This document shows positions 7,883 to 45,339 of a DNA stretch of 64,000 nt, in pieces. This DNA is from Ignavibacteriota bacterium (lineage in GTDB: Bacteria; Bacteroidota; Ignavibacteria; Tepidaquicellales; Tepidaquicellaceae). A program made the translations under genes and the position numbers. Every line of letters starts with the position of its first letter. The first letter of the stretch is position 1. Under the pieces are notes generated by a model that was not told where the DNA came from, made no database searches, and saw only the letters and a program-made list of their open reading frames with translations. The stretch spans positions 62,001 to 126,000 of the forward strand of contig JACREY010000020.1 of the NCBI GenBank assembly GCA_016218085.1. Direction: 5' to 3'.

Positions 7883-7970
7883 AAATACAATATTTAGTAA
7901 GGTGATTATTTATTTAGAAATTGCCTGTTATAAATTTCCTTTGTATATTACAAACAATTAATCAGAAGAA

Positions 7971-22519: not shown

Positions 22520-22540
22520 TATAATTATAAGGAATATTTG

Positions 22541-24373: not shown

Positions 24374-24406
24374 AAAAAATATTTCGGAATTTTAAAAAAA
24401 TTCAAT

Positions 24407-26176: not shown

Positions 26177-26260
26177 GAGTGTGTAGATTGTAATGAGTGT
26201 ATGAGTGAAGATTGAGTTGAAAATAAATTATAGAAAATAAAATAAATCTAAAAATAATAT

Positions 26261-26683
26261 ATGGAACAGGATAAAGAATTTAACCCGAAAATTGTAGCTT
26301 TCTTATGCAACTGGTGTACATATACCGGTGCTGACCTTGCAGGTGTTTCGAGACTGAAATCGTCACCTTGTGTCAGAATTATTCGAGTTATGTGTAGCGG
26401 TAGGGTTGACCCTACATTTATTATTAAAGCATTTAAGCAAGGCGCTGATGGAGTTTTCATAGGCGGATGCCACATTGGAGATTGTCATTACTCAGAAGGT
26501 AATTATAAGACTTTAAGGAGAGTTGAATTTATGAAAACTTTTTTGGAAGAATTTGGTATTAACCCGAAAAGATTAAGACTCGAATGGATATCAGCATCAG
26601 AAGGTGATAAGTATGCCGCCACAACTTTAGAATTTGAAACTGAAATACGAGAACTTGGACCGTTACATTTAGTTGAAGCATAA
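26261..26683 (+). CDS. mvhD: MvhD-family [2Fe-2S] electron-transfer subunit
   Basis: A 140-residue protein matching MvhD/FrhD-like subunits that wire a [NiFe] hydrogenase to HdrA. Conserved cysteines: C16-x2-C19 (LCNWC), C45 (RVMCSGRVDP), C70 and C75 (GGCHIGDCH). The GADGVFIGGCHIGDCHY block is diagnostic. It lies directly before the small and large subunits, as in mvhDGA clusters, and after the HdrA-C fusion, so it probably bridges the NiFe dimer to that chimera. Confidence 0.93.
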   Translation: MEQDKEFNPKIVAFLCNWCTYTGADLAGVSRLKSSPCVRIIRVMCSGRVDPTFIIKAFKQGADGVFIGGCHIGDCHYSEGNYKTLRRVEFMKTFLEEFGINPKRLRLEWISASEGDKYAATTLEFETEIRELGPLHLVEA

Positions 26684-26718
26684 AAAATTTTATAATAAAA
26701 ATATTAATTTCTTTTATA

Positions 26719-27720
26719 ATGAAACCAAAATTAGCTTTATACTGGGCATCTTCCTGTGGAGGTTGTGAAATTGCAGTTGTAGATATTGAATTAAAAATAC
26801 TTGATGTTGCTGGATTTTTCGATATTGTTTTCTGGCCCTGTATAATGGATTTTAAATATAAAGATGTAGAAGCAATGCAAGATGGTGATATTACATTGTG
26901 TTTATTCAATGGAGCAATCAGAACTTCTGAAAATGAACATCTTGCGAAGCTGCTCAGAGCAAAATCAAAAGTACTAGTTGCGTTTGGTTCCTGTGCTAAG
27001 GAAGGATGCATTCCCGGGCTTGCAAATTTCTATGATAAAAAAACAATCCTGGATTATGTTTATAATGACAGTCCTTCATTAGAAGCTGAATCAAAGGGAG
27101 TTTATCCTGAGATGAGGACGAATATGCCCGAAGGTGAAATCGAAATTCCCGAGTTCTGGAATACAGTGAAAACACTTGACCAGGTGGTTGATGTCGATTA
27201 CTATGTCCCGGGTTGCCCTCCACAATCATTCCAGATAATAAATGTGATTGAAGCTGTAATTGATATTTTAAAAAACGGTAAACCACTTCCTCCTAAAGGA
27301 ACTATACTTGGAGCAGGAGATAAAACTTGCTGTGATGAATGTCCGCGTGAAAGAAAAGAAAAGAAAATTAAAAAATTTTACAGACCTCAGGAAATTATTC
27401 CTGATCCGAAAGAATGCCTGCTTGACCAGGGAATAATGTGCATGGGACCTGCAACAAGAAGCGGATGTGATGCATTATGCGTAAAGGCAAATTCAGGTTG
27501 CAGGGGATGTTACGGTCCGCCTCCGAATGTAATGGACCAGGGGACTAAAATGGTTTCGGCACTAAGTTCTGTAATTGACTCCACTGACCCAAATGAAGTC
27601 AAGGAAATAATTAAAACTATTGCTGACCCGCTTGGTACGTTTTACAGATTTTCACTTGCATCTTCTTTGATGAAAAGGGTTCAACAAAAAAACGGTGAGG
27701 ATAAAAATAGAAAATTTTAA
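26719..27720 (+). CDS. mvhG: [NiFe]-hydrogenase small subunit, group 3 (Mvh/HydS type)
   Basis: A 333-residue Fe-S subunit that conducts electrons away from the NiFe site. The proximal-cluster motif SSCGGCE (C13, C16) is at the N-terminus, followed by GSCAKEGC and the VPGCPPQ motif. The C-terminal part is Cys-rich (CCDECP, MCMGPATRSGC, NSGCRGCYGPP). No twin-arginine signal is present, so the enzyme is cytoplasmic, as expected for group 3. It stands 20 bp before the large subunit. Confidence 0.93.
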   Translation: MKPKLALYWASSCGGCEIAVVDIELKILDVAGFFDIVFWPCIMDFKYKDVEAMQDGDITLCLFNGAIRTSENEHLAKLLRAKSKVLVAFGSCAKEGCIPGLANFYDKKTILDYVYNDSPSLEAESKGVYPEMRTNMPEGEIEIPEFWNTVKTLDQVVDVDYYVPGCPPQSFQIINVIEAVIDILKNGKPLPPKGTILGAGDKTCCDECPRERKEKKIKKFYRPQEIIPDPKECLLDQGIMCMGPATRSGCDALCVKANSGCRGCYGPPPNVMDQGTKMVSALSSVIDSTDPNEVKEIIKTIADPLGTFYRFSLASSLMKRVQQKNGEDKNRKF

Positions 27721-27740
27721 AAGACAAATACAATATAAAT

Positions 27741-29219
27741 ATGAGACAAATAAAAATCGACCCTGTAACAAGACTGGAAGGTCACGGAAAAATTGATATC
27801 TTTTTAAATGATGATGGTGAAGTAGCTAATTGCTATTTTCAAATTCCCGAACTTAGAGGGTTCGAGCAGTTTGCTGTAGGAAGGCCTATTGAAGAAATGG
27901 CAAGAATAACTACAAGAATATGCGGTGTATGTCCTGAAGCTCATCATATGGCTGCAGCAAAAGCAGCTGATGATGTATATAAAGTTCAAATACCTTCTGC
28001 CGGCAAAAAACTCCGTGAACTTTTATATAACACGTTTTATACTGCAGACCATACTGTGCATTTTTATGCACTTGCGGGACCTGATTTTGTTTGCGGGCCG
28101 GATGCTCCTCCTGCAGAAAGAAATATTCTTGGGTTGATTAATAAAGTCGGTCTTGAAGCAGGAGCAAAAGTGATTGGGTTAAGAGCAAGATGTCAGGAAA
28201 TCATTCAGATGCTTGGAGGTAAAAAAATTCATCAGGTTACTTCTATCCCGGGTGGTGTAACGAGAGGAATAAACGAGGAAGAAAGAAAAAAAATCGAAGA
28301 ATATGCCCAATATATGATTGACTTTGGGCAGTTTACTTTTAAAGTTTTCGAAGATATTGTTTTAAAAAATAATGCTTATGTCGATTTGATTGTCAACGGT
28401 CCTTACATTCATAAAACTTATTATATGGGATTAGTAGATGAAAATAATCAGGTGAATTTTTACGACGGAAATGTAAGAGTTGTTGACCCTGAAGGTAATG
28501 AATTTTGCAAATACAAACCTTCTGAATATTTAGATAATATTGCAGAACATACGGAAAAATGGAGCTATTTAAAATATCCTTATCTTAAAAAAATTGGTTG
28601 GAAAGGTTTTGTTGACGGGAAGGATAGCGGTGTTTATATTGCAACTCCATTATCGAGATTAAATGCGTCCGATGGAATGCCGACACCCCTTGCACAAGCT
28701 GAATATGAAAAAATGTATTCAACATTAACCGGAGATAGTTCCGGTAAAAAGCCTATTCATCAACGTCTTGCAACACACTGGGCAAGAATAATAGAACTTC
28801 AATACGCAGCGGAAAGAGTTATGCAACTTGTTAAAGACCCGGAAATTACTTCCCCTAATTTTAGAGTTATTCCAACGGAAACTCCTTGTGAAGGTATAGG
28901 AATTGTGGAAGCACCGAGAGGGACACTAACTCATCATTATATTACAGATGAAAGAGGAATTGTTAAAAAAGCAAACTTAATCGTCGGTACGACAAACAAC
29001 CATGCTGCAATTTCGATGTCGATTAAAAAAGCTGCTGAAGGATTGATTAGAAAAGGAACTGAAGTAACCGAGCCGATTTTAAATATGATAGAAATGGCAT
29101 TCCGTGCATATGACCCGTGTTTCGGCTGCGCAACTCATACTCTTCCCGGTGAAATGCCGATGATACTGACTATCCGGGATTCAAAAGGTGAGATTATTGA
29201 ATCAATAAAAAGACATTAA
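27741..29219 (+). CDS. mvhA: [NiFe]-hydrogenase large subunit, group 3 (Mvh/HydL type)
   Basis: The 492-residue catalytic subunit that holds the NiFe(CN)2CO centre and splits or forms H2. The N-terminal L1 motif RICGVCPEAHH supplies C61 and C64, and the C-terminal L2 motif DPCFGCATH supplies C460 and C463. A 26-residue tail follows His466 and is the predicted target of the M52 protease at 14887. Sequence and the MvhD partner place it in group 3 (F420-non-reducing or HydABCSL-like) rather than the uptake group. It is the last catalytic gene of the run. Confidence 0.95.
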   Translation: MRQIKIDPVTRLEGHGKIDIFLNDDGEVANCYFQIPELRGFEQFAVGRPIEEMARITTRICGVCPEAHHMAAAKAADDVYKVQIPSAGKKLRELLYNTFYTADHTVHFYALAGPDFVCGPDAPPAERNILGLINKVGLEAGAKVIGLRARCQEIIQMLGGKKIHQVTSIPGGVTRGINEEERKKIEEYAQYMIDFGQFTFKVFEDIVLKNNAYVDLIVNGPYIHKTYYMGLVDENNQVNFYDGNVRVVDPEGNEFCKYKPSEYLDNIAEHTEKWSYLKYPYLKKIGWKGFVDGKDSGVYIATPLSRLNASDGMPTPLAQAEYEKMYSTLTGDSSGKKPIHQRLATHWARIIELQYAAERVMQLVKDPEITSPNFRVIPTETPCEGIGIVEAPRGTLTHHYITDERGIVKKANLIVGTTNNHAAISMSIKKAAEGLIRKGTEVTEPILNMIEMAFRAYDPCFGCATHTLPGEMPMILTIRDSKGEIIESIKRH

Positions 29220-30463: not shown

Positions 30464-30736
30464 ATGCTTCACGAACCTGCTGTCGTTATTTCTACGGATA
30501 ATGCGGCTTCAAAAAAATCAAAACTAGGTATTATTTTGTTTTTTGTCTACACAGTTATTTATTCCGGTTTTGTTCTGATTGGTCTGACTAAACCCGAATT
30601 GATGGGATTAGAATTAATCGGAGGACAAAACATTGCCATTATATATGGATTTGGATTAATTGTGCTGGCTATAGTTATGGGTTTTATCTATAACTATTTC
30701 TGTACTAAAATGGAAAAAAAATTAAATAAAAACTAA
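30464..30736 (+). CDS. DUF485-type small membrane protein, partner of the acetate symporter
   Basis: A 90-residue protein with two membrane segments (about 23-43 and 56-79), the profile of DUF485 (YjcH) proteins that are almost always encoded just before ActP-type sodium/acetate symporters. Here it lies 18 bp before such a symporter. A strong Shine-Dalgarno (GGAGGAAA) precedes the ATG. It probably assists or regulates the transporter. Confidence 0.82.
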   Translation: MLHEPAVVISTDNAASKKSKLGIILFFVYTVIYSGFVLIGLTKPELMGLELIGGQNIAIIYGFGLIVLAIVMGFIYNYFCTKMEKKLNKN

Positions 30737-30754: not shown

Positions 30755-32677
30755 ATGATTTACGAAGTCTCAAATTTAGCAATAATAATATTTCTGTTTA
30801 TCGTAGGTTTAGTATTGGGTTTATCTTTTTATTTTGCAAGAAAAACAAAATCTTCCGCCGGTTATTATGCTGCTGGTGGAAATATACATTGGAGCGTTAA
30901 CGGTATTGCATTTGCCGGTGATTACTTATCTGCAGCTTCTTTTCTGGGTATATGTGGAATGATTGCATATTCAGGTTATGATGGATTTTTATATTCAATC
31001 GGATATCTTGCCGGCTGGGTAGTTGCATTATTTCTTGTTGCCGAGCCGTTGAAAAAACTCGGCAAATACACATTCGCGGATGCCTTGGATTCTAAATTTA
31101 ATTCTAAATCAATTAAACTTGCTGCTTCAATCAGCACATTAATTGTTTCGATTTTTTATCTTATTCCGCAAATGGTTGGTGCGGGTGATCTTGTAGTTCC
31201 TTTACTTGGACTGCCTCATTGGATGGGCGTGCTTATTGTAGGTTCAATTGTGATTTTTATTGTTGCAACCGCAGGTATGACTTCTACGACTTATGTGCAA
31301 TTTATCAAGGGTGCCTTGTTGGTCGTTTTTTCAACCATTTTAACGATTTATATTCTAAATAACGGATTATCATTAACTCCTAATGAGAATTACCATAAAT
31401 TTACCCAATTAGAAGCAATAGTTTCAAATGATACAATAGTAAATGTTACTAATCCCGCCTATATCGTAAAGACAACAAAAGTAGTTGATAAAAGTGTCTT
31501 TGTTAAACTTGAAAAAGATGGTTCAATTTGTTGGTATAAATTAAACAAGAAAGAAGGTAAAACAACACTCGATGAAATTCTCTCTACTACAGTTATTGCA
31601 AGTGGTGAAAAATTATATAATGGAGCTCCTAAATCAGAAAAGAAATTCTACCAGGTTGGGCATTTAAGTAAAATTATTGTTGACGGAAAAGAAGTTGACA
31701 AAACCGGTCCTGTCGGTCCTTTTGAGTTTATAAAGACAATTGAAAAAAGTGAAGTAGTCCGGTTTTCCAAGAAAACGTTTTCAGATGGAAGTGACAAAGT
31801 TACAGTCTGGTATCAACAAATTACAAAGGGTGAAGATGTTATGAAACCGGGACTATTATACAAACTTTCAGACGCATCAGGTGCAACTATATGGGATAAG
31901 TTAAACTTCTTATCACTTATGCTTGCATTGTTTTTAGGAACTTCTGCATTGCCTCATATACTTATCCGATATTATACCGTACCAAGTCAGCGAGCCGCAA
32001 GGAAATCCACTATTGTTGCTATTGCTGCAATCGGATTTTTCTATATCTTAACTCTTTATATGGGACTTGGCTCGATGATAAATGGAGTTTTAGACGTTGA
32101 AAGCAGTAATATGTCGGGTCCGCTTTTAGCGAAATCATTTGGTGTCGGATTGTTCTCTATTATATCAGCAATTGCATTTGCTACTGTTCTTGGTACTGTC
32201 AGCGGATTGATTGTAGCTTCATCCGGTGCTATTGCTCATGATTTTATTGATAAGTATTTGCAGGTTGAGATGACTGATAATGCTAAAGTAAAAGCAGGAA
32301 AAATAGCTGCAATGTGCGTTGGTATCTTTGCAATTATTTTAGGAATATTATTCAAAGGAATGAATGTTTCTTTCTTGGTTGGACTTGCATTTGCCGTTGC
32401 AGCTTCGGCCAATCTGCCTGCAATATTATTCCTTTTATTCTGGAAAAAAACAACTGCTAAAGGAATAGCATGGTCAATCATAGTTGGTATTGTCTCTTCG
32501 ATCGGTATTATTCTATTCTCTCCGACTATGTATGATAAATATGGTTTAATACCAAAGGATGCTCCAATACCTTTGGATAATCCCGGTATTATTTCCATCC
32601 CGTTAGCAGTACTTACTTTAATCGTTGTATCGTTAATGACACAAAAAGATAATTCGACAAAAGATTTTTCAAAATAA
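30755..32677 (+). CDS. actP: SSS-family sodium/solute symporter, ActP-like (acetate permease type)
   Basis: A 640-residue inner-membrane symporter. The start of the fold (AGDYLSAASFLGICGMIA near 54-71), the Na+-site region and the segment ALFLGTSALPHILIRYYTVP match ActP, which imports acetate and other short monocarboxylates. It is longer than the usual 550 residues because residues about 212-378 form a soluble insertion between membrane helices, rich in charged residues and short strands. The DUF485 gene precedes it and a porin and a CBS-DUF294 protein follow, all consistent with acetate uptake. Confidence 0.85.
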   Translation: MIYEVSNLAIIIFLFIVGLVLGLSFYFARKTKSSAGYYAAGGNIHWSVNGIAFAGDYLSAASFLGICGMIAYSGYDGFLYSIGYLAGWVVALFLVAEPLKKLGKYTFADALDSKFNSKSIKLAASISTLIVSIFYLIPQMVGAGDLVVPLLGLPHWMGVLIVGSIVIFIVATAGMTSTTYVQFIKGALLVVFSTILTIYILNNGLSLTPNENYHKFTQLEAIVSNDTIVNVTNPAYIVKTTKVVDKSVFVKLEKDGSICWYKLNKKEGKTTLDEILSTTVIASGEKLYNGAPKSEKKFYQVGHLSKIIVDGKEVDKTGPVGPFEFIKTIEKSEVVRFSKKTFSDGSDKVTVWYQQITKGEDVMKPGLLYKLSDASGATIWDKLNFLSLMLALFLGTSALPHILIRYYTVPSQRAARKSTIVAIAAIGFFYILTLYMGLGSMINGVLDVESSNMSGPLLAKSFGVGLFSIISAIAFATVLGTVSGLIVASSGAIAHDFIDKYLQVEMTDNAKVKAGKIAAMCVGIFAIILGILFKGMNVSFLVGLAFAVAASANLPAILFLLFWKKTTAKGIAWSIIVGIVSSIGIILFSPTMYDKYGLIPKDAPIPLDNPGIISIPLAVLTLIVVSLMTQKDNSTKDFSK

Positions 32678-32701: not shown

Positions 32702-33964
32702 ATGAAACAAATTATAATTGTTTTAATAATTGCTGTTTCTTTTACAATCTGTGCACAGGATAAAAAAGATGATTCGAAATTCATTCTAAAATTATCGGGT
32801 TTTGTGAAAACAGATGCGTTTTTCGATTCACGTCAAACAGTTAATATCAGGGAAGGTCATTTTTTATTATATCCTGATAATGTTTCTCTCGATGCCAACA
32901 AAGATGATATTAATGCGAAATCAAATTTCAATATACTTTCTATACAGTCCAGGTTAAAAGTTGCTGTTACAGGTCCCGATGTCTTCGATGCCAAACCGTC
33001 AGGTGTAATAGAGGCAGATTTCTTTGGAAATGAGAACTCGAGTTTTAGTGATGTAAACGGTTTCAGGCTCAGACATGCTTTCGTAAAATTAAATTGGAAG
33101 ACAACTGAATTATTGGCAGGTCAATATTGGCATCCAATGTTCATTGCAGAATCATTCCCGGGTGTAATTTCATTCAATACAGGTGCCCCGTTTCAGCCAT
33201 TCTCTCGTAATCCGCAAATTCGTGTATCTCAAACTATGGGTAATCTGAAATTAATAGGATGTGTATTCTCTCAAAGGGATTTTACAAGTTTCGGGCCGGA
33301 TGGAGCAAGTTCAAAATATATTAGAAATTCAGCTATCCCGAATTTACATTTTCAAATGCAATATAAATCCGATTCATCGGATTTCTTTGCCGGAGCAGGC
33401 GTAGATTATAAAACTTTAACTCCTGAACTATACACCTCAAATTCATCAGCAACAAAGAAATTTACTTCCGATAAAACTTTAAGCAGTTTATCAACTATTG
33501 GTTTTTTAAATATGAAATTTAAACCATTATCAATCAAATTGGAAGGGATATTTGCTCAAAACGCATACGACATGGTTATGATAGGAGGATATGCGGTTAA
33601 AAATATTATTGATACCTCTACAGGTGTTAAAGAGTTTACAAATCTTAATACCATTTCTTTCTGGGCTGATTTACAGACAACCGGTGAAACTGTTCAATTT
33701 GGTCTTTTCACCGGATATACTAAAAATTTAGGATCTAATGATTCGATTAATGGAACAATATATGCCCGCGGTTCTAATGTCGATTATGTTTATAGAGTTG
33801 CTCCAAGAATTGTATTTATTTCAGGTAAATTTAATATAGCATTGGAAGGTGAATATACATTTGCAATGTATGGAATAGTAAACGGAGATAAAAAAGGAAG
33901 AGTAACCAGCGGTTATGCAATGAACAATACAAGAGGATTGCTTTCTTTCATTTATAATTTTTAA
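32702..33964 (+). CDS. Outer-membrane beta-barrel protein (porin-like)
   Basis: A 420-residue secreted protein. An 18-residue signal peptide (ending FTICAQ) is followed by about 16 amphipathic strands with frequent aromatic girdle residues (GQYWHPMF, FWADLQTTGETVQFGLFTGY), and the chain ends in Phe, as outer-membrane barrels do. No close named family was recognised; DcaP-like or phosphate-selective porins are similar in plan. Its place 24 bp after the acetate symporter suggests outer-membrane passage of the same solute. Confidence 0.75.
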   Translation: MKQIIIVLIIAVSFTICAQDKKDDSKFILKLSGFVKTDAFFDSRQTVNIREGHFLLYPDNVSLDANKDDINAKSNFNILSIQSRLKVAVTGPDVFDAKPSGVIEADFFGNENSSFSDVNGFRLRHAFVKLNWKTTELLAGQYWHPMFIAESFPGVISFNTGAPFQPFSRNPQIRVSQTMGNLKLIGCVFSQRDFTSFGPDGASSKYIRNSAIPNLHFQMQYKSDSSDFFAGAGVDYKTLTPELYTSNSSATKKFTSDKTLSSLSTIGFLNMKFKPLSIKLEGIFAQNAYDMVMIGGYAVKNIIDTSTGVKEFTNLNTISFWADLQTTGETVQFGLFTGYTKNLGSNDSINGTIYARGSNVDYVYRVAPRIVFISGKFNIALEGEYTFAMYGIVNGDKKGRVTSGYAMNNTRGLLSFIYNF

Positions 33965-34045
33965 ATATATTTTATTTATAACTAATTTATCGTATAAGAT
34001 ATATGCTTTTGTTAAATCTTGTTTATATTGTATTGTATAAATGAT

Positions 34046-36907
34046 ATGAGCAAATTTTATATAAAAATTATTCTGCCTTCTGTTATATCTATTCTTTTAT
34101 TCATTCTTACTATTTTTTTGATTATTATTCCGAATTTTCAGCAGAATATTATGAATGGAAAAAGGGAAATGATAAAAGAACTTACTAATTCTGCATTGAG
34201 TATTCTGTCGAAATACGAAAATGATGAAAGGAATGGTTTACTTACCCGTGAAGAAGCACAAAATACAGCTGTCTCAAGAATTCAATATCTTAGATACGGT
34301 GAGGAGAACAAAGATTATTTCTGGATTACCGATATGCAACCTAAAATGATTATTCATCCGTATAGAACAGATTTAAACGGAAAAGATTTATCAAATTTCA
34401 GTGATCCGCACGGAAAAAAGTTGTTCGTGGAATTTGTAAATACAGTCAAAGAATTAGATCACGGATATGTAGATTATATGTGGCAATGGAAGGATGATTC
34501 ACTTCATATTGTTCCTAAATTATCTTATGTCAGTATTTTTAAACCATGGGGATGGGTTATTGGGACAGGTATTTATATTGAAGATGTAAAAAAAGAAATA
34601 GACAATCTTACAAAAAAACTCCTTTGGATTTCGGTGGGAATTTCGTTTTCAATAGCTTTTCTGCTTTTATTCATTTCCCAGCAAAGTCTTAAAATCGAAA
34701 AGCAAAGAATTAAAGCGAATAACGAATTGCACGATTCGAAAGAAAAATATAAAACTCTTGTAGAAGCTACAACCGAAGGACTAATAATGCTTATAGACGG
34801 GAAAATAAGTTTTACTAATAATGTGCTGAGTAAAATGTTATATTATGAAAATAACGAACTTGTTAATTGTACTTTAAACGAATTAATTAGTGAAAACAAT
34901 AATAAAGAAATTATAAGTGCTTTTTCAGAGATAATCGTAAAAGAGGGACAATATGAAGTAAATTTGAAAAAGAAAAACGGTGGATTTATAGAGGTCTTAG
35001 TTACATCATCTACAGCAGTAATTAATGGTAAAGAAGTGAATATAATAATTGCAAAAGATATTACAGTTGATAAGAATCTGAATTTGTCGGTTTTAGATTA
35101 CCAAAAATTATTAAGCACTCTGGATATTGGATTTTTCCGTATAAACCTTGATTCTAAAGGAAAATTTATATTTGCAAACGATACTACTATAAGAATTTTA
35201 GGATATGTTAATTACAGGGATCTTTCTGAGACTCATTTTATTGAAATGCTCACGAAATCAGAAGACCGAAAAATCTTGAGAAAGAATCTAATTGAAAACG
35301 GTTTTATCAAAAACAGAGTCTTGAATATACGGAAGAAAAATAATGAAGAAGCTTATGTTTCTGTTACACTCGTTGCGTACAACAACAATGATTCCGAAGA
35401 TTTATTTTGTGACGGAATTATCGAAGATATTACAATTAAGGAAAAAGAGAAAGCAGATACAGTCAATTTAATTACTGAATTAAAATCCAATTCATTTTTA
35501 ATAGAACAATCCGTAAAGAACTTTCTGTCACCGTTAAATACTTTGGACTCAGATGCAACTATATTTGATGCGATCGATTTATTAAATAAAAGGAAAATAG
35601 ATAACTTAGTGATTACTAATGCGAGAAAACAATATATCGGAATAGTAACAAACAGCGACGTTCAGAAAAGGGTGCTTTTGCTTAATCTGAATTTGGATAA
35701 TCCTATATATTTAATAATGAGTTCCCCAATAGTTTATATAAAAGAAAGTACTTCCATTTGCGATGCAATAAATATTAGCGAAGAAAAAAATGTAAATCAT
35801 CTTGTTGTTAGAAATGATATTGATGAAGTTGCAGGAATATTGAGAACTAATGATATATACAAAGTTTTAAAAGATTCACTTACATTTTTCATTTCAAATA
35901 TAAGTAAAGCAGAAACAAAAAATGAATTGCAACAGCTATACAAAAAATTGCATCTATTTATAAAACCTCTGATTAGAAGTGATATCAATGTAAAATACAT
36001 AACAAATATCACTTCGTCTTTTTCAGATGCTGTGACAAAAAGATTAATAGAATTGACCATTAAAGAATTAGGTAATCCCCCAACAGGTTTTACATTTATA
36101 AGTATGGGGAGTGAAGGAAGAAAAGAAGAAACTTTATTTACTGACCAGGACAATGCAATTATCTATGAAGATATACCGGATAATGAAAATAATTTAACGG
36201 GTGACTATTTTAATAAACTTGGTGAAATAGTATGTGATTCACTGAATTATATTGGTTATAAGTATTGTATGGGCAATGTTATGGCTAAAAATAAACAGTG
36301 GTGCCAACCTGTAAGCGTTTGGGTAAAATATTTCGAAGAATGGGTAACAACTCCTGAACCACAGAATCTTCTAGATGCTACAATATTTTTTGATTTCAGA
36401 TGTGTTTATGGAGATGAAGGATTCACTAATAGGATAAAGGATACTATTGCTAAATTAATTAAAGAACACTCGCTGTTCCTGTATCATCTTGCTCATAATA
36501 CTTATAGTATTAAACTTCAGCAAATATCTTCAGGAAATATTATTTCGGATAAATATACGGAGTCAATCGATTTGAAGAATGCAGTTAATCCAATTGTTAT
36601 GTTTGCAAGGACCTATTCTCTCCAGAATAATATTTGTTGCTCCAATACATTTGATAGGTTAAATGCAATAAAAACAAAAAATATTATTAGTGCAAACACT
36701 GTAGATGAAATATTATTTGCATATAATTTTCTTATGAAACTGCGCTTTAAAAATCAAATTGATTTGTCGGATAATAATTTACCATTATCTAACACTATGA
36801 ACCTGAAAAATCTAATTGAATTAGAATTTAAGATTCTGAAGAAAATACTTTCTTTAATTCCCGCATATCAGAATAAAATTAATGTTGATTTCAGATTAAC
36901 AACTTGA
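34046..36907 (+). CDS. Membrane sensor: Cache-PAS-PAS-CBS-DUF294 nucleotidyltransferase
   Basis: A 953-residue protein that joins a chemoreceptor-like input to a nucleotidyltransferase. Order: TM1 (about 5-27), single-Cache sensor (about 30-190, with KDYFWITDMQPKMIIHP and PWGWVIGTGIY), TM2 (about 195-215), two PAS domains (about 230-470), a CBS pair (about 496-615) and a DUF294/GlnD-like nucleotidyltransferase with GSEGRKEETLFTDQDNA near 686, then the DUF294 C-terminal helical domain. The ATG at 34046 is preferred over a TTG nine codons upstream. Cytoplasmic CBS-DUF294 proteins are common beside actP; fusion to a membrane sensor is unusual. Confidence 0.85.
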   Translation: MSKFYIKIILPSVISILLFILTIFLIIIPNFQQNIMNGKREMIKELTNSALSILSKYENDERNGLLTREEAQNTAVSRIQYLRYGEENKDYFWITDMQPKMIIHPYRTDLNGKDLSNFSDPHGKKLFVEFVNTVKELDHGYVDYMWQWKDDSLHIVPKLSYVSIFKPWGWVIGTGIYIEDVKKEIDNLTKKLLWISVGISFSIAFLLLFISQQSLKIEKQRIKANNELHDSKEKYKTLVEATTEGLIMLIDGKISFTNNVLSKMLYYENNELVNCTLNELISENNNKEIISAFSEIIVKEGQYEVNLKKKNGGFIEVLVTSSTAVINGKEVNIIIAKDITVDKNLNLSVLDYQKLLSTLDIGFFRINLDSKGKFIFANDTTIRILGYVNYRDLSETHFIEMLTKSEDRKILRKNLIENGFIKNRVLNIRKKNNEEAYVSVTLVAYNNNDSEDLFCDGIIEDITIKEKEKADTVNLITELKSNSFLIEQSVKNFLSPLNTLDSDATIFDAIDLLNKRKIDNLVITNARKQYIGIVTNSDVQKRVLLLNLNLDNPIYLIMSSPIVYIKESTSICDAINISEEKNVNHLVVRNDIDEVAGILRTNDIYKVLKDSLTFFISNISKAETKNELQQLYKKLHLFIKPLIRSDINVKYITNITSSFSDAVTKRLIELTIKELGNPPTGFTFISMGSEGRKEETLFTDQDNAIIYEDIPDNENNLTGDYFNKLGEIVCDSLNYIGYKYCMGNVMAKNKQWCQPVSVWVKYFEEWVTTPEPQNLLDATIFFDFRCVYGDEGFTNRIKDTIAKLIKEHSLFLYHLAHNTYSIKLQQISSGNIISDKYTESIDLKNAVNPIVMFARTYSLQNNICCSNTFDRLNAIKTKNIISANTVDEILFAYNFLMKLRFKNQIDLSDNNLPLSNTMNLKNLIELEFKILKKILSLIPAYQNKINVDFRLTT

Positions 36908-36926: not shown

Positions 36927-37682
36927 TCAAAAAGAAAAGTAAGCATTGTGCTTAAAATATTTGAATTCATTATTATGAACATATCCAAGCTGATTTGTAA
37001 GCATAATTGTATTTCCAATATATAGGGGCATTTGGTTGAAATGGCTATGTCCGTAAAGCCAGAAATTCACATCTGATTTTTCAATAAAATTGGTCAAATC
37101 GACACAAAATGCTTCGTTTATCAGACTTTTGTTATGATGGGAGGAATTGCATAACTGTGAAGGTAAATGATGTGTAACTATAACTGTTTTACTTTTTTTA
37201 TTGTTTAACTCTTGTTCAATAAAGCTTAAGCATTCTTTGTGCAGTATATTGAAATCTGCAACTTTAAGTTTCCTGCCGTTATTTGTTATACAATCAAAAT
37301 CCGATACACTTTGTTCGATAATTTTTTCGTTATCGTTACTTATTTCTGACCAAAGTGTGCTGAAAATAAACTGAATGTTTTCATACTGTAAAGCAATATT
37401 ATTAACAATGTTAATATTGCTTTTTATTTTAATATTAAAAGATTTGCTGAATTCATTTAAATCATTATAATAAAATTCGTGATTACCCGGAACCCAAAAC
37501 ACTTTTTCATAATTATCGGAAATAAAATTAAAAAAAGTGTTATTAAAATATTCATCATGCAAAGGAATAATATCCCCAGCTAATATTAATATTTCTCCTT
37601 TTACAGACAGGGGATTATTTGATATATATTTGCTGTTATGCTCAAACTCAAGATGCAAATCGGAACAATATTGAATTCTCAT
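36927..37682 (-). CDS. Calcineurin-like metallophosphoesterase
   Basis: A 251-residue phosphoesterase. The dinuclear metal motifs are complete: DLH (8-10), GD in LAGDIIP (about 36), GNHE in VPGNHEFYY (about 66), THHLPS (about 167) and GHSH (about 211). No signal peptide, so it is cytoplasmic. Substrate unknown. It converges on the nucleotidyltransferase gene with 19 bp between stops. A second, only distantly similar phosphoesterase is at 50367. Confidence 0.85.
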   Translation of the reverse strand: MRIQYCSDLHLEFEHNSKYISNNPLSVKGEILILAGDIIPLHDEYFNNTFFNFISDNYEKVFWVPGNHEFYYNDLNEFSKSFNIKIKSNINIVNNIALQYENIQFIFSTLWSEISNDNEKIIEQSVSDFDCITNNGRKLKVADFNILHKECLSFIEQELNNKKSKTVIVTHHLPSQLCNSSHHNKSLINEAFCVDLTNFIEKSDVNFWLYGHSHFNQMPLYIGNTIMLTNQLGYVHNNEFKYFKHNAYFSF

Positions 37683-38284: not shown

Positions 38285-40525
38285 ATGAAATTCGCATTTA
38301 TCGGAACATATCCTCCGCAAAAATGCGGAATCGGAACTTTCACTCATAATCTTATACAATCCGTTGCAGATAACTTTGGCTACACGAATTTATTCCCAAA
38401 TCTATATGTAATTGCTGTAAGTGATAATGAGCAGGTGTATCAATATCCTTCTGAAGTCTCTTTTGTGGTAAATCAAAATAATCAGAGAGACTATGTCAGC
38501 GCGGCAAAATTTATTAATTACAATAAAGCCGACGTATGCGTTATTGAACACGAATTCGGAATTTTCGGGGGTGAAAGCGGAGTGTACATACTTTCGCTTG
38601 TTAGCAGAATTGAAATTCCACTTATAGTAACTTTTCATACCGTTATCAGAGAGCCATCTCTTATTCAAAAAGTAATCGTTCAGGAATTAAGCAGCAAGGC
38701 ATTCAAGGTAATTGTAATGAGCAAAAAAGCAGTAAAGTTTCTTGTTGAAATATATAAAATTCCGGAAGATAAAATTGAAATTATAGAGCACGGAGTGCCT
38801 GTCGGTAAAGTGTTTCACAGGGATTCCGTACGGGAAAAATTTAATTTCAGCAATAAGACAGCTCTGTTCACATTCGGGCTTTTAAGCAGGAATAAGGGCA
38901 TAGAAACGGTAATTAAAGCACTGCCAAAAGTCGTGAAGAAACATAAAAACATTCTATATGTAGTTCTGGGGAATACACATCCGAAAGTTTTGAGCAGGTA
39001 CGGGGAAGAATATAGGGAATATCTATTGCGTCTTGTTAAAGAATATAATCTCGAAGATTATGTGTATTTTTATAAAAGCTTTGTACCGGAAGAACTCCTG
39101 ATGGAATATTTATATGCGGCCGACATATACATAACTCCGTATTTAAACGAAGCGCAGATTACAAGCGGAACTCTCTCTTACGCTATCGGAGCCGGCACTG
39201 CCGTATTATCAACTCCTTACTGGCACGCAGAAGAATTGCTTGCAGATGGCAGGGGAGTTTTATTCGATTTTCATAATCACGAACAGCTTGGAGATATATT
39301 GCTGGACTTACTCGACAACCGTCACAAAGTTGAACAATTGCGCGAAGCCGCTTTTGAATACGGTCATAAGTTAAAATGGCCAAAGATAGGTGCAAAATAT
39401 ATTAAAGTTGCTAAATCGGCGATGGATAGTTTTACATTTATTCAGAAGGAAAAACGTACAACCCTTGATCCTTATCTGCTGCCAGATTTCACTCTTGCTC
39501 ATATAAAGCGACTTACAGATGATACGGGAATTGTTCAGCATGCAAAATACGGCATACCGAATCTGAAAGAGGGATATTGCCTAGATGATAATGCAAGGGC
39601 ACTTTTAATGACTGCAATGGCTCAGTATAAAAACAAGACCGATGAAACGGTTGGTTTGATGCCGATTTATCTCAGTTATATTCACTATATGCAGAATGAT
39701 GACGGTTCGTTCAGGAATTTTCTGAGTTTCAGCAGAAACTATCTGGATGAGGTAGGATCCGAAGATTCTTTCGGAAGGACAATCTGGGCGCTGGGTTTTC
39801 TTATTTACGGCTTTCCTAAGGATTCCTATCATGAGCTTGGGTTGGATATTTTCAATAAGTCAATACCGTTTTTTAAAAAGCTTGTCCATTTAAGGGGGAT
39901 TGCAAATACAATATTGGGTTTATCTTATTATCTGAAGCGTTTTCCCGATGAAAAGAAAATAATGAAAATAACGCATGAGCTTACATATAAATTAATAGAT
40001 TCTTATAAAGCTGAAAAATCCGGTAAATGGAACTGGTTTGAAAATATTTTAACGTATGACAATGCAATTATTCCTCTTTCGATATTTCACGCATATGAAA
40101 TATTCAGGGAAGATGAGATTCTGAAAGTGGCAGTTGATTCGACTAAATTTTTGAAAGACGTTACAATGAAGAGCGGTCATCTGAGACCTGTAGGGAGCAA
40201 GGGGTGGTATCGCAAAGTGTCTGAATGCGCAGAATTTGCACAACAGTCAATTGATGTTATGGGAATGGTTCTGCTGTTCTTCAAAGCTTATGAAGTGACA
40301 AAAGAAAATAAATATCTTGATAAGATGTTCACATCGTATATGTGGTACATGGGAAAAAATGATTTGAATACACCGGTTTACGATTATGAATCAGGAGGAT
40401 GCTTCGACGGACTGGAGGATTACGGTATTAATAAAAATCAGGGTGCTGAAAGCACTCTATCATATTTAATTTCGCATTTGACTGTTTTAAATGCATTCGA
40501 ACTCGAACACGAATATGAAAAGTGA
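38285..40525 (+). CDS. GT4 glycosyltransferase fused to an alpha/alpha-barrel domain
   Basis: A 746-residue two-domain protein. Residues 1 to about 385 are a GT-B glycosyltransferase of family 4, with the glycine-rich start TYPPQKCGIGTFTHN, the nucleotide-side FGLLSRNKG and the EELLMEYLYAADIYITPYLNE segment. From about 400 to the end lies an all-helical region with repeated aromatic motifs (DDNARALLMTAMAQY, GSFRNFLSF, GKWNWFENILTYDNA), resembling alpha/alpha toroid glycosidase-like domains. It starts the glycan locus that also holds two GH130 proteins and a second GT4, so it probably builds a mannose-containing oligosaccharide or polymer. Confidence 0.82.
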   Translation: MKFAFIGTYPPQKCGIGTFTHNLIQSVADNFGYTNLFPNLYVIAVSDNEQVYQYPSEVSFVVNQNNQRDYVSAAKFINYNKADVCVIEHEFGIFGGESGVYILSLVSRIEIPLIVTFHTVIREPSLIQKVIVQELSSKAFKVIVMSKKAVKFLVEIYKIPEDKIEIIEHGVPVGKVFHRDSVREKFNFSNKTALFTFGLLSRNKGIETVIKALPKVVKKHKNILYVVLGNTHPKVLSRYGEEYREYLLRLVKEYNLEDYVYFYKSFVPEELLMEYLYAADIYITPYLNEAQITSGTLSYAIGAGTAVLSTPYWHAEELLADGRGVLFDFHNHEQLGDILLDLLDNRHKVEQLREAAFEYGHKLKWPKIGAKYIKVAKSAMDSFTFIQKEKRTTLDPYLLPDFTLAHIKRLTDDTGIVQHAKYGIPNLKEGYCLDDNARALLMTAMAQYKNKTDETVGLMPIYLSYIHYMQNDDGSFRNFLSFSRNYLDEVGSEDSFGRTIWALGFLIYGFPKDSYHELGLDIFNKSIPFFKKLVHLRGIANTILGLSYYLKRFPDEKKIMKITHELTYKLIDSYKAEKSGKWNWFENILTYDNAIIPLSIFHAYEIFREDEILKVAVDSTKFLKDVTMKSGHLRPVGSKGWYRKVSECAEFAQQSIDVMGMVLLFFKAYEVTKENKYLDKMFTSYMWYMGKNDLNTPVYDYESGGCFDGLEDYGINKNQGAESTLSYLISHLTVLNAFELEHEYEK

Positions 40526-40613
40526 TGATATTTAAATAAATTTAGAAAATTTGTATATTTTTATATAATCTTATTTGTAATTATTTATCCAATTTTAAAA
40601 AAACAAAAAGAAT

Positions 40614-41876
40614 ATGTATGGTTTAAATGAAGAAAATATATTTTATAATAATTTCGAAATAAAATTCGCTCCTCAATATGGAATAGTAAGTTTAAAGAAT
40701 TCGAATGAAAATATAACTACAAACCTTATTAATTTGTGGACATATCCAGATTACCATAACTACAGTCACCATTTATATGATTGTAAAGATTATTGCGAAA
40801 AGCTAAAAATTTTTATGAACGAAATTCTAACACTTGCAAATAATATAAAAAAAGAAAGAGGAGATATATATTCATATTTATGTTCACATTTTTTTGAATG
40901 TTTAACAAATTATACATTATCTTTAAGAAAATTCCATCTATATTTTAATGGTATAATTTTTTGGGATTTTATAAATACGATAGTCTTAGAATGGGAAAAA
41001 AATAATCCAAATTTTACTATTCATAAAGGTTCGCTATATTGTTTTGAAGCTGAAATTTATATGGCGGTGAAAGATGTTGAAATTGCTTTTACTTTTCTTC
41101 ATAGAGCTATTGGAGAAGATTATAAAATTAAAGACTATATTAAGGGATATCCAAATTCTGCCCCTGCATATAAAATTGTCACATTGAGGGAAACAATAGA
41201 TCATTTTATGAGTAATTACGTTGATTATATAAGAAATGAAATTAAAATTGGAATTAATGCCTTCAATGATATTATTAATGTTTCCCCCCCACTTACACTA
41301 GAAGAATTTGATCAACTATTATTATCAAATGATTTATTTGATTCTGATAAATTATATGAAAATATAAAAATAAATATTTCATATTATATTTGGAATACAA
41401 GCTATTATCTGTCTAAGACTAAAATAAATAATGAAATTACACAATTTGACAATTTAAACATTCTAAACAAACTTTTTGGAATGTGTGTTGTTCTTGAATC
41501 ATTAATTAAGATATTATCTAAAAAAGAAAAACTAGAAAGTACTAAAGATATTACAAAAAAACTGTATCTTGTTGTCGGTGGTGATAATAAAACATTTGAT
41601 AAACTTTACGATTATGTTAAAAAAAAGGATGATATGATAGATGGTTTGATTTTGGAATTATTAATTTCCGAAAATCATGAATTTAAAAGTTATTCAATTT
41701 CTAATGAAGTTAAATGTGTATTAATATACCATATTATTAGAAACTTTACTGCACATAATATTAAATCTGTAGAAGCCATTGGAAAAAATTTTCTCGAAAT
41801 ATCCCAGAGATTATTATTTCTATTGTTTATTATTTTAAGATATTATAAAAGTACTTTGTTAAAAGCAAAAAGCTAA
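40614..41876 (+). CDS. Unknown AT-rich protein with C-terminal HEPN-type RNxxxH motif
   Basis: A 420-residue, mostly helical soluble protein that I do not recognise. Near its end is HIIRNFTAHNI, an R-x4-H arrangement (Arg376, His381) typical of HEPN ribonuclease and Abi-like domains, preceded by helices with a matching hydrophobic pattern. Base composition is clearly more AT-rich than the flanking glycan genes, with many Asn, Ile, Lys and Tyr codons, suggesting recent transfer. It interrupts the glycosyltransferase/GH130 run on the same strand. A defence or toxin-like RNase is possible; a non-catalytic nucleotide-binding role cannot be excluded. Confidence 0.6.
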   Translation: MYGLNEENIFYNNFEIKFAPQYGIVSLKNSNENITTNLINLWTYPDYHNYSHHLYDCKDYCEKLKIFMNEILTLANNIKKERGDIYSYLCSHFFECLTNYTLSLRKFHLYFNGIIFWDFINTIVLEWEKNNPNFTIHKGSLYCFEAEIYMAVKDVEIAFTFLHRAIGEDYKIKDYIKGYPNSAPAYKIVTLRETIDHFMSNYVDYIRNEIKIGINAFNDIINVSPPLTLEEFDQLLLSNDLFDSDKLYENIKINISYYIWNTSYYLSKTKINNEITQFDNLNILNKLFGMCVVLESLIKILSKKEKLESTKDITKKLYLVVGGDNKTFDKLYDYVKKKDDMIDGLILELLISENHEFKSYSISNEVKCVLIYHIIRNFTAHNIKSVEAIGKNFLEISQRLLFLLFIILRYYKSTLLKAKS

Positions 41877-41932
41877 ATACCTCTTGTTAAACGCGGTATT
41901 ATGAATGGACTAAACAATTATATAAATATATT

Positions 41933-42862
41933 ATGCCAATAATAAAAAGATATTCGGGCAATCCGATACTTACAAGAGAAGATGTCCCATATGAAGTTGC
42001 AACTGTTCATAATGCAGGCGCAGTTAAATTCGGAGAAAAATATATTTTGCTATTTCGTTCACATCTGAATAATGGCAGAAGCATAATAGGAATGGCGGAA
42101 AGTAAAGATGGTTATTCCTTTAAAGTACATCCCGAACCTTTTATCACTCCTTCTGAAAAAGATGGATTTAAGCTTTATGAAGAGTACGGAGTGGAGGACC
42201 CGAGAATTACCTATATAGATAATGAATACCTGATTACATACAGCGCATACTCGAGATACGGTGTCAGAATAGGACTTGCGAAAACTTCAGATTTCAAAAG
42301 CACAGAAAGAATCGCTTTAATAACTGAAGCGGATTACAGAAATGTAGTAATCTTTCCTGAAAAATTTAACGGACTTTACGCCAGACTTGACAGACCTCAT
42401 TCGGAGATTTCTCCCTGGTCAATCTGGATTTCTTATTCACCTGATTTAAAACACTGGGGTAATTCAAAAGTAATTATGAGGCCGATGATGTATCACTGGG
42501 ATGAAATGAAAATCGGTCCGGGTGCTCCGCCAATTAAAACAAGCAAAGGCTGGCTGAGCATTTATCATGGGGTGTTTCCGACTATGGATGGAAATATTTA
42601 CAGGCTTGGAGTTGCATTGCACGATTTAAAAGATCCTTCCTTAATATTAGGCGTTGGAGATAACTGGATTCTTCAGCCCGAAGAAATTTATGAAGTTACA
42701 GGATATGTTCATAATGTTGTGTTCACTTGCGGAGCAATTCCCGAACCGGACGGAACAGTAAAAATATACTGGGGGGGAGCTGATAAAGTTATATGTGCGG
42801 GAGAAGCAGTTATTGATGACCTAGTGAGTATGTGTTTAAATAATTCAAGAAAAGCATTATGA
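41933..42862 (+). CDS. GH130-family glycoside phosphorylase
   Basis: A 309-residue five-bladed propeller enzyme of family GH130, which phosphorolyses or builds beta-mannosides. The catalytic Asp lies in GVEDPRIT, and other family landmarks are RYSGNPILTREDVP at the start, IGPGAPPIKTSKGWL for phosphate binding, and YHGVF. Length is typical of bacterial mannosyl-glucose or mannobiose phosphorylases. Its stop overlaps the following GT4 gene by 4 bp. Together they suggest synthesis and recovery of a beta-mannoside reserve or surface glycan. The exact linkage cannot be told. Confidence 0.88.
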   Translation: MPIIKRYSGNPILTREDVPYEVATVHNAGAVKFGEKYILLFRSHLNNGRSIIGMAESKDGYSFKVHPEPFITPSEKDGFKLYEEYGVEDPRITYIDNEYLITYSAYSRYGVRIGLAKTSDFKSTERIALITEADYRNVVIFPEKFNGLYARLDRPHSEISPWSIWISYSPDLKHWGNSKVIMRPMMYHWDEMKIGPGAPPIKTSKGWLSIYHGVFPTMDGNIYRLGVALHDLKDPSLILGVGDNWILQPEEIYEVTGYVHNVVFTCGAIPEPDGTVKIYWGGADKVICAGEAVIDDLVSMCLNNSRKAL

Positions 42863-43872
42863 GAGTTGCAGTATTATCACCTGTAGTATGGAGGACTCCA
42901 CCGCGGAAATACGGTCCGTGGGAACAGGTCGCATCTAATATTGCAGAAGGATTGATTGAAAAAGGAATAGATGTTACTCTTTTCGCAACAAGTGACTCCG
43001 TTACAAAAGCCAAACTTGAATCCGTCATAAACAATCCTTACGGAGAAAACTCCGGACTCGATGCAAAAGTCTGCGAATGTTTACATATAAGCCATCTGAT
43101 GGAATGCGCAAATGAATTTGATATTATACATAATAATTATGATTTTCTTCCTCTTACATATTCACGTTTGATAAAAACTCCAATGGTTACAACGATTCAC
43201 GGGTTTTCGTCGCCTAAAATTGTTACTGTTTACAAAAAATATAATGATTTTAACAATTATGTATCTATAAGCAATTCAAACCGTAGTCCTGAACTGAAAT
43301 ATACAGCGACTGTGTATAACGGTATTAATGAAAAGGAATTTACATTCAAAAAGGAGCACGGTGATTATCTGCTTTTCTTCGGACGCATTCATCCTGACAA
43401 AGGAACATATGAAAGCATTGAAATCGCAAAAATGGCCGGGATGAAACTGATTATTTCAGGGCTGATTCAGGATGAAAAGTATTTTGAAGAAAAAGTAAAC
43501 CCGTACATTGATGGCGAGAATATAATATATGCAGGAAACTCCGGACCCGATAAGAGAAACGAACTGCTTGGAGGGGCTTATTTATTGCTTCATCCGATAA
43601 GTTTCGAAGAGCCATTCGGTTTAAGTGTTGTGGAATCATATTTCTGCGGTACACCTGTTATTGCTTTTAATAGAGGCTCTATGCCGGAATTAGTATCAGA
43701 TGGCAAGACTGGTTTTCTCGTATCAGGAATAAATGAAGCTGCAGAAGCATTAAAGAAAATCAAAGGAATAAACAGAGTGGATTGCTTTACGTGGGCTAAA
43801 AGCAAATTTACCCGCTCAAAAATGGCAGATGATTATATCGATGTTTATAAAAAGGTTCTATATAATAAATAA
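42859..43872 (+). CDS. GT4-family glycosyltransferase
   Basis: A 337-residue GT-B fold transferase. The N-terminal loop TPPRKYGPWEQVASNIAEGL, the DIIHNNYDFLPL acceptor side, YLLFFGRIHPDKG at the nucleotide-sugar domain start, and the E-x7-E motif region FEEPFGLSVVES are typical of GT4. It begins in the GH130 gene (4-bp overlap), so the two are co-translated. Donor and acceptor are unknown. It converges on a second, longer GH130-like gene with 6 bp between stops. Confidence 0.87.
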   Translation: MRVAVLSPVVWRTPPRKYGPWEQVASNIAEGLIEKGIDVTLFATSDSVTKAKLESVINNPYGENSGLDAKVCECLHISHLMECANEFDIIHNNYDFLPLTYSRLIKTPMVTTIHGFSSPKIVTVYKKYNDFNNYVSISNSNRSPELKYTATVYNGINEKEFTFKKEHGDYLLFFGRIHPDKGTYESIEIAKMAGMKLIISGLIQDEKYFEEKVNPYIDGENIIYAGNSGPDKRNELLGGAYLLLHPISFEEPFGLSVVESYFCGTPVIAFNRGSMPELVSDGKTGFLVSGINEAAEALKKIKGINRVDCFTWAKSKFTRSKMADDYIDVYKKVLYNK

Positions 43873-43878
43873 AAATTC

Positions 43879-45339
43879 CTACTCTTTTAATTTCGCCAAT
43901 AAAGTGTTCAGATTTACAGTTGCAAAACTAGAGGCATAATCAGATATTGCATAGGGGATAACTAATACATTATTGTAAACCAAAGAGCCGCACGAATAAA
44001 CTACATTAGGAACATATCCTTCTCTTTCATCTTCGTTAGGTACAATCAGCGGGTCTTTTAAACTCCCGATTACTTTTGTCGGGTCATATAAATCAAGTAA
44101 TAATGCTCCAATGGAATATTTTCTCATTTGTCCGACACCATGAGTAATAACCAGCCAGCCTTCGGATGTTTCGATAGGCGAGCCGCAGTTTCCGACCTGA
44201 ATTAATTCCCAGTTATATGTTGGTTCGCGAAGTAACTGGGAATTTTCCCAGAGCGTAATATTATCCGAAAACATAATATAATGGTTTATTCCGTCCAGCC
44301 TGGATAGCATAGCATAATGGCCGTTGATTTTTTTCGGGAAAAGAGCAAAATTCTTATCCCGGGTGCATTCTCCGTGAAGCGGCAAATTTTTAAAATGATA
44401 AAAATCCTTTGTCTCAAGAAGTTTTGGAAGAATAGTATAACCGTCATAAGCTGTGTAAGTTGCGTAATAAGTTATGTCACCGTTTTCATCTTTGAATTTC
44501 ACAAATCTGGCATCTTCTATTCCATTGCTTTCTGTTCTGGAGACAGGAAAAATAGTTCTTTCTGAAATGTCAGTATCCTGAGAAAAAACTATTTCGTAAT
44601 GCGACTTTGCGAGCCACATCATTTGTTTCAGGGTTTTTTGCTGGTCAAGGTTCAGAGTTTTTTTGCTTTTAGCTTTTTCGATTGTGTTTTTAAGTTGAGT
44701 ATAATAAAAATATTCCTCAAGTTGATCCAGTACGTCGGTGGAAATATTATTAACTATATCGTGTTCCTGAAGAATCATTTTGAATTCATCTTTGTTATAT
44801 GCGTGACCTTTAATAATTTCCGCTTCGCTTATGTAGTTACCCTGCGGGTCAAAATGTAGGTTGAAATCTTTATCTATGATACCGCTTCTGAAAACTATGG
44901 ATGAAATGTGACTTTCCCCCGTTGCCCTGAAACTCACTATGATTCGCTTCTGCCCCTCTTCAAGCTCATTCTGGTCAGGATGTTCCATTATGGATGGATT
45001 GAATAGAGCCGCGGATTCAATTGAATACTCCATAGTAAAATAAGAACCTATTAAAAGTCTTTTAGTAGGAGACATTTTTTCGTGGCTTCCCGTCAATTCA
45101 TTAACATACTCAATTATTTTCGAGAAATTCATCAGGAAAATCTTTGTGATATTTCTGTGGCGTTTGGCAAATTCCCTTAAAACCAGGTTGAGTGCCGTTT
45201 CTGCCTCTGTTTCGCTCATATCAAGAATCTTTTGTATTATTGATTTTGCCTTTGTCTCGGGGTGATTAAAAAATCTTGTGATAACCCTTTTGGAGTCAGG
45301 GTATATCCTGTCTCTTTTTCTATCGACGGTGATTCTCAT
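43879..45339 (-). CDS. GH130-like glycosidase-related protein with N-terminal helical extension
   Basis: A 486-residue protein. Residues 1 to about 160 form a helical extension, and about 165-486 are a GH130-type propeller with the Asp in NGIEDARFV, CGSPIETSEGWLVITHGVG and a final YVPNVVYSCGS blade. This longer form matches the GH130 subgroup that includes beta-1,2-mannoside phosphorylases and mannosyltransferase-phosphorylases. It is on the opposite strand to the rest of the locus. Its own promoter must lie in the 45340-45786 spacer. Confidence 0.82.
   Translation of the reverse strand: MRITVDRKRDRIYPDSKRVITRFFNHPETKAKSIIQKILDMSETEAETALNLVLREFAKRHRNITKIFLMNFSKIIEYVNELTGSHEKMSPTKRLLIGSYFTMEYSIESAALFNPSIMEHPDQNELEEGQKRIIVSFRATGESHISSIVFRSGIIDKDFNLHFDPQGNYISEAEIIKGHAYNKDEFKMILQEHDIVNNISTDVLDQLEEYFYYTQLKNTIEKAKSKKTLNLDQQKTLKQMMWLAKSHYEIVFSQDTDISERTIFPVSRTESNGIEDARFVKFKDENGDITYYATYTAYDGYTILPKLLETKDFYHFKNLPLHGECTRDKNFALFPKKINGHYAMLSRLDGINHYIMFSDNITLWENSQLLREPTYNWELIQVGNCGSPIETSEGWLVITHGVGQMRKYSIGALLLDLYDPTKVIGSLKDPLIVPNEDEREGYVPNVVYSCGSLVYNNVLVIPYAISDYASSFATVNLNTLLAKLKE

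Follow-up and report, generated by a model that had tools for sequence, protein, structure and literature searches.

What do DUF294 nucleotidyltransferases do beside acetate symporters? The question has long been open, and the open-access literature yielded no biochemistry of any DUF294 protein. Pflu5625 of P. fluorescens belongs to the CrbS/R acetate regulon and is predicted to act by nucleotidylation (PMC5715377). The window analysed here, a stretch of 64,000 nucleotides from an Ignavibacteriota bacterium, encodes such a module as the output of a membrane receptor. This fusion narrows two of the unknowns: a crystal structure allows its input ligand to be predicted at the level of single residues, and a candidate eraser of its mark is encoded next door.

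The receptor is the sole DUF294 protein of its genome and is encoded by a single open reading frame, which starts with ATG (MSKFYIKI...) or, from an alternative TTG start, would extend over 34019-36907. The gene and its domains are as follows:

34046-36907 (+): receptor nucleotidyltransferase, 953 aa (open reading frame, Pfam, model)
34151-34609 (+): sCache_2 sensor, residues 36-188 (Pfam E 1.3e-39, PDB alignment, pocket conservation)
34742-35446 (+): two PAS domains, residues about 233-467, in the interval from the second TM helix to the CBS pair (Pfam, model)
35513-35875 (+): CBS pair, residues about 490-610 (Pfam E 2.4e-15 for two CBS, conservation, model)
35948-36364 (+): DUF294 nucleotidyltransferase (NT) domain, residues 635-773 (Pfam E 2.8e-43, conservation)
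36473-36886 (+): DUF294_C helical domain, residues 810-947 (Pfam E 9e-22, conservation)

The sCache_2 match (PF17200) scores 136 bits against a cut-off of 25, while DUF294 (PF03445, 147.6 bits against a gathering cut-off of 21) and DUF294_C (PF10335, 77.9 bits against 22.5) follow one another in the expected order. The first PAS domain spans residues 233-340 (PAS_9, E 1.2e-13) and the second begins at about residue 352 (PAS_8, E 7e-5), with a PAS fold modelled at 349-461. Read from the N-terminus, Pfam and the full-length model give TM, sCache_2, TM, PAS, PAS, CBS pair, DUF294 and DUF294_C, which matches the order claimed in the earlier note (Cache, two PAS, CBS pair, DUF294). In the model, long helices (2-62 and 178-240) flank the Cache domain and are followed by two PAS folds, the CBS pair and the NT module; the mean pLDDT is 83.8, and the relative placement of the domains is uninformative since the pTM is only 0.47. 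NCBIfam matches to MctS and CtpM are confined to the Cache part, and a Pfam scan of the protein found no HisKA/HATPase, MCP signal or GGDEF output domain.

The fusion is an old one, and it is conserved: its relatives number about 80 and occur in Bacteroidota/Ignavibacteria, Calditrichota, KSB1 and Elusimicrobia. When named genomes were searched with six query peptides, 80 loci were recovered, most of them full-length and 31-75% identical to the window protein; the records are labelled Bacteroidetes, Ignavibacteriae, Calditrichaceae, KSB1 or Elusimicrobia, with a single Ectothiorhodospiraceae MAG. In a family search of 296 genomes from the phylum, all strong DUF294 matches (E < 1e-40) in the window's class fall in long frames (806-975 aa), and all such proteins that were fetched carry Cache, CBS and NT parts; in the other classes most DUF294 proteins measure about 640-690 aa, those scanned being cNMP-CBS-DUF294 proteins. 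Among relatives of one genome (G062) from those other Bacteroidota classes no fusion was found, the strong matches spanning CBS-DUF294 only, and none of 345 matching plasmid records covers 80% of the query. A quick tree requires two label changes for the fusions, with one locus (L087) as a long branch of uncertain place; judged on these sequences, a single origin of the Cache-DUF294 fusion is possible. One locus of the window's class (L114) and one from a Melioribacter record (L059) carry the same genes at the fusion locus, which points to Ignavibacteria as the probable class. In one MAG (L073:8001-10770) the frame is broken into ORFs of 451 aa (Cache) and 488 aa (NT), which may reflect a frameshift or an assembly error. 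A separate clade (L088, L089, L090, L094, L095, L098, L108) has a shorter fusion (837 aa) with one PAS domain by Pfam, and in it a gene of 255-258 aa (in L088, at 7195-7965, +, that of a TPR protein) occupies the position of the phosphoesterase gene in the sister loci L101, L105 and L110.

The input end of the receptor can be compared directly with known structures. In a PDB sequence search the Cache domain aligns to PscD (5g4y, E 2.2e-34) and Adeh_3718 (4k08, E 5.1e-35). PscD of Pseudomonas syringae has acetate, propionate, glycolate and pyruvate as ligands, and in the complex with propionate (5G4Z) the contacts come from Tyr90, Trp92, His103, Phe126, Tyr143, Trp145 and Lys156 (PMC5062169). 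All seven are identical in the window protein (Y91, W93, H104, F127, Y144, W146 and K158, in the same order), a match that the earlier note had not noticed, and so they are in 74/74 aligned fusions, a count that calls for caution because the six search peptides include one that extends into the pocket. A separate sCache_2 survey of the class found the full seven-residue pocket in 7/7 complete fusions vs 5/9 other sCache_2 proteins; the signature is thus not automatic for the family, yet it is common. Four of the other sCache_2 proteins of the class (L173, L174, L175, L178; about 640-700 aa, one cut at 387) directly adjoin homologues of the porin-like gene described below, and three of these four have the full pocket. 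The ligand class of the receptor is well supported by this residue identity, and the Cache domain very probably binds a C2/C3 carboxylate. Further along the protein, CBS-1 contains GIVTNSD, an instance of the nucleotide motif G-h-x-T-x-x-D in which G532 and D538 are at least 90% conserved; because this motif is kept, an internal adenylate input via the CBS pair is plausible.

At the output end, the DUF294 motif reads G688-S689-x2-R692-x-E694-x5-D700-Q701-D702-N703. The pattern GSxxRxE-x5-DQDN is invariant in the 74 aligned fusions on which conservation was counted; D783 (just downstream of the DUF294 domain) and K844, R855 and R871 (in DUF294_C) are invariant too. The claim that a receptor is here fused to an intact nucleotidyltransferase is therefore borne out: neither loss of the active-site residues nor lack of conservation of the fusion, the two observations named beforehand as speaking against it, was encountered. 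A catalytically silent NT module, serving for adenylate sensing and protein interaction, would accord with the Pflu5625 deletion, which has no growth phenotype on acetate (PMC5715377), and activity of the NT module is predicted from sequence and model. Silent domains, however, tend to lose such residues, while Gly-Ser, Arg, Glu, both Asp and D783 are invariant in 71-74 sequences down to 31% identity, and this alternative is very improbable. Catalytic competence of the output domain, the reading preferred here, is well supported by its conserved motif, and nucleotidyl transfer activity is highly probable.

The chemistry that this activity would serve is suggested by the fold. The model of the NT and helical part has a pLDDT of 91.7 and a pTM of 0.90; as a PDB sequence search with the NT region gave no meaningful match, a structure search was run instead. 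The best match of the modelled module was the deadenylylating domain of GlnE (1v4a, Z 27.9, 307 residues, 2.7 A), followed by the adenylylating domain of GlnE (3k7d, Z 26.2, 304 residues) and by DrrA (6YX5, Z 24.9), after which the next entry drops to Z 13.4. GlnE domains and DrrA put AMP onto proteins or take it off them. Since the three best matches all handle protein AMP, protein AMP chemistry is the most likely reaction, even though a fold alone is no proof: adenylylation, deadenylylation, uridylylation and small-molecule nucleotidylation are indistinguishable by it. Transfer of AMP to a protein is accordingly somewhat favoured.

A target may be sought among the neighbours. Upstream of the receptor, and on the same strand, lie three genes:

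30464-30736 (+): DUF485 small membrane protein, first gene of the co-directional cluster (PF04341, E 4.6e-11)
30755-32677 (+): SSF symporter, ActP/MctC-like, 640 aa (PF00474, E 5.9e-70)
32702-33964 (+): putative outer-membrane porin-like protein (no Pfam match; 'porin' suggested by its sequence)

The gaps along this cluster are 18 bases (DUF485 to SSF), 24 (SSF to porin-like) and 81 (porin-like to the receptor ATG); promoter-like sites are as frequent as expected by chance, and the number of terminator-like sites is near the chance expectation. The best NCBIfam matches of the symporter are MctC (NF058657, 457 bits against a cut-off of 670) and ActP, both under the curated cut-off. An insertion of about 150 residues (204-353; 31364-31814) splits its SSF match in two; next to related fusions, symporters close to it in length (635-641 aa) are found repeatedly.

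The generality of this arrangement was assessed in 51 loci, one per 90% identity group and with at least four genes on each side, against 235 distant genes of the same loci as background. An SSF symporter lies within five genes of the fusion in 46/51 loci, vs 1/235 background genes; a DUF485 or DUF4212 small protein is present in 44/51 and a homologue of the porin in 31/51. On the receptor tree the type of small partner switches at least six times, which indicates that the symporter link has been kept through repeated replacement of the symporter. The description of the region as an acetate locus thus stands as regards the linked ActP/MctC-type symporter and its companion genes, and falls as regards acs, which is not nearby. 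The further proposal that acetyl-CoA synthetase is a target found no support: no acs occurs in any fusion neighbourhood and the genome's own Acs gene is on another contig, making this target less likely.

The same turnover bears on what the linkage means. Because the symporter type is swapped while the receptor persists, the linkage may instead reflect a shared ligand. The receptor could then nucleotidylate a transcription factor or other regulator encoded elsewhere, with the symporter tied to it by ligand and regulon only, a reading with which two further observations agree: Pflu5625 shares its regulation with actP although its gene is located elsewhere (PMC5715377), and in 12/51 loci a CRP/FNR-type regulator is encoded no more than three genes from the fusion (e.g. 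L037:11840-12574, -). This regulator, however, is limited to loci related to the window clade and a few more and is absent from the window, while the symporter is by far the most constant neighbour; a distant regulator is rather unlikely. That the co-encoded symporter complex itself is the target is doubtful as well, since the replacements are between divergent symporter subfamilies, which fits a target poorly. Several conserved tyrosines (Y75, Y80, Y135 and Y430 in the window SSF), considered as possible AMP sites, are found in the fusion-linked symporters, the only symporters compared, and do not decide the matter.

Downstream, the receptor gene meets a second type of neighbour, which the earlier note had missed:

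36927-37682 (-): calcineurin-like phosphoesterase, 251 aa, convergent with the receptor gene, candidate eraser (PF00149, E 2e-16)

The gene is separated from the receptor gene by 19 bases, and the motifs DxH, GD, GNHE, H and GHxH are all present in its product. A metal-dependent hydrolase lies within three genes of the fusion in 43/51 loci: a calcineurin-like phosphoesterase in 33/51 (background 1/235) or an AP_endonuc_2 TIM-barrel protein (one clade) in 10/51, never both, with neither type in 8/51. The phosphoesterases form three unlinked sequence clusters in three positions, namely convergent (the window clade), upstream on the same strand, and downstream of the symporter (Elusimicrobia), and together with the AP_endonuc_2 clade these make four hydrolase states that need three changes on the receptor tree. 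The choice between phosphoesterase and AP_endonuc_2 protein is a single change on this tree, so that 'never both' represents one event rather than many, and in the window clade the convergent phosphoesterase gene is not co-transcribed with the receptor. Counting the DEDDh exonuclease of the cytoplasmic DUF294 proteins described below, the nucleotidyltransferase thus repeatedly adjoins an enzyme of a phosphodiester-cutting class, and these hydrolases have three unrelated folds.

Such a pairing could also indicate that DUF294 makes a diffusible nucleotide messenger (an oligonucleotide or a nucleotidylated metabolite), which the phosphoesterase, AP_endonuc_2 protein or exonuclease would degrade. 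The partner hydrolases are all of classes able to cut phosphodiester bonds, other polymerase-beta-type nucleotidyltransferases make such products, and HalB with oligodeoxyadenylate is among the weak structural matches of the NT module. The best matches by a wide margin, however, are protein-modifying enzymes, which cover the NT and helical domains together, and no dedicated messenger receptor was seen to recur in the fusion neighbourhoods; we regard a messenger as quite unlikely. If the mark is instead on a protein, removal by the neighbouring hydrolase is a reasonable role, because RNase Z, a nuclease, has been shown to be a deAMPylase (PMC12663964). By this analogy, the phosphoesterase is tentatively proposed as the eraser.

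Two further gene groups of the window deserve mention. The run at 22538-29219 (+) encodes NuoF-like, HdrA2-like, VhuG-like and VhuA-like NiFe-hydrogenase proteins and resembles a hydrogenase/heterodisulfide-reductase electron-bifurcating complex, in a non-methanogen. At 38285-45339, the genes of two GH130 proteins (41933-42862, + and 43879-45339, -), nearest to beta-1,2-mannobiose phosphorylases, are interleaved with those of two GT4-type glycosyltransferases; one of these glycosyltransferases is 746 aa long with a possible GH88-like C-terminal part.

Taken together, the locus may encode a transmembrane device in which one protein signals the presence of short monocarboxylates, namely a receptor adenylyltransferase gated by acetate or propionate and accompanied by a candidate eraser; we consider the chances of this reading to be even. 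The periplasmic sCache_2 domain, with its pocket matched by residue identity, would bind a C2/C3 carboxylate, for example acetate, propionate or pyruvate. The signal would pass via the second TM helix/coiled coil and the two PAS domains to the CBS pair, which may contribute a reading of internal adenine nucleotides. The GlnE-like DUF294/DUF294_C module, for which motif and fold are in hand, would thereby be switched and probably transfer AMP from ATP to a protein. The mark could be removed by the neighbouring metal-dependent hydrolase, here the phosphoesterase at 36927-37682. Most speculatively, the target might be the symporter complex encoded alongside, or some other protein that serves monocarboxylate uptake, in which case the response would act after translation. 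The full proposal, in which an extracellular nutrient directly gates reversible protein AMPylation and a co-encoded calcineurin-type or AP-endonuclease-like deAMPylase acts as eraser, is somewhat unlikely as it stands. If true, it would mean that bacteria can convert an external nutrient straight into a nucleotide tag on a protein, with no two-component cascade in between. It would also add a receptor output class beside histidine kinases, chemoreceptors, diguanylate cyclases and serine/threonine kinases, and account for the exonuclease next to cytoplasmic DUF294 proteins, which would erase the same mark. What appears new, as far as the sequences tell, is a DUF294 signalling nucleotidyltransferase in which a membrane carboxylate receptor replaces the cyclic-nucleotide input; no description of a Cache, nucleotidyltransferase and CBS fusion, or of the DUF294-hydrolase pairing of fusion loci, was found in the open-access literature.

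The closest known systems are the cytoplasmic cNMP-CBS-DUF294 proteins (e.g. Pflu5625), which share the order CBS pair, DUF294, DUF294_C with the window protein and are also linked or co-regulated with SSF symporters and a DUF485/DUF4212 small protein. At the N-terminus they carry a cyclic-nucleotide domain (PF00027 in 4/4 canonical proteins scanned; absent from the window protein in the Pfam scan), whereas the window protein has TM-Cache-TM-PAS-PAS there. Their occurrence beside actP-type symporters, as presumed earlier, was seen in alphaproteobacteria but not in the loci sampled from other Bacteroidota classes, of which 0/13 canonical loci have a symporter and 7/13 a DEDDh 3'-5' exonuclease. 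On alphaproteobacterial plasmids the genes run DUF4212, SSF, DUF294, small protein, 3'-5' exonuclease, and one of these loci has an acetate-CoA ligase and an annotated acetate symporter; symporter loci with cNMP-CBS-DUF294 in this group often carry the DEDDh exonuclease. The paired hydrolase of these proteins is thus often a DEDDh exonuclease, and that of the fusions a calcineurin-type phosphoesterase or AP_endonuc_2 protein; next to the window receptor stands the phosphoesterase, with no DEDDh exonuclease adjacent.

GlnE (1V4A, 3K7D) and DrrA (6YX5) have in common with the window NT a two-domain fold over about 300 residues (Z 25-28) and a catalytic motif from the same superfamily. The sequence identity is only 12-14%, the window protein has one NT module, with no tandem AT domains and no match to the GlnE family (PF03710) in Pfam, and its membrane receptor input sets it apart from both. 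With sCache_2 chemoreceptors of the PscD/Adeh_3718 type (5G4Y/5G4Z, 4K08; PMC5062169) it shares the domain family and 7/7 ligand-contact residues, though their output is a chemotaxis signalling domain and that of the window protein a nucleotidyltransferase. Lastly, by analogy, SLC5-STAC histidine kinases of the CrbS type likewise couple the presence of monocarboxylates to acetate uptake and use; unlike CrbS, the window system has neither histidine kinase nor response regulator, its symporter and sensor are separate proteins, and its output would be nucleotidyl transfer.
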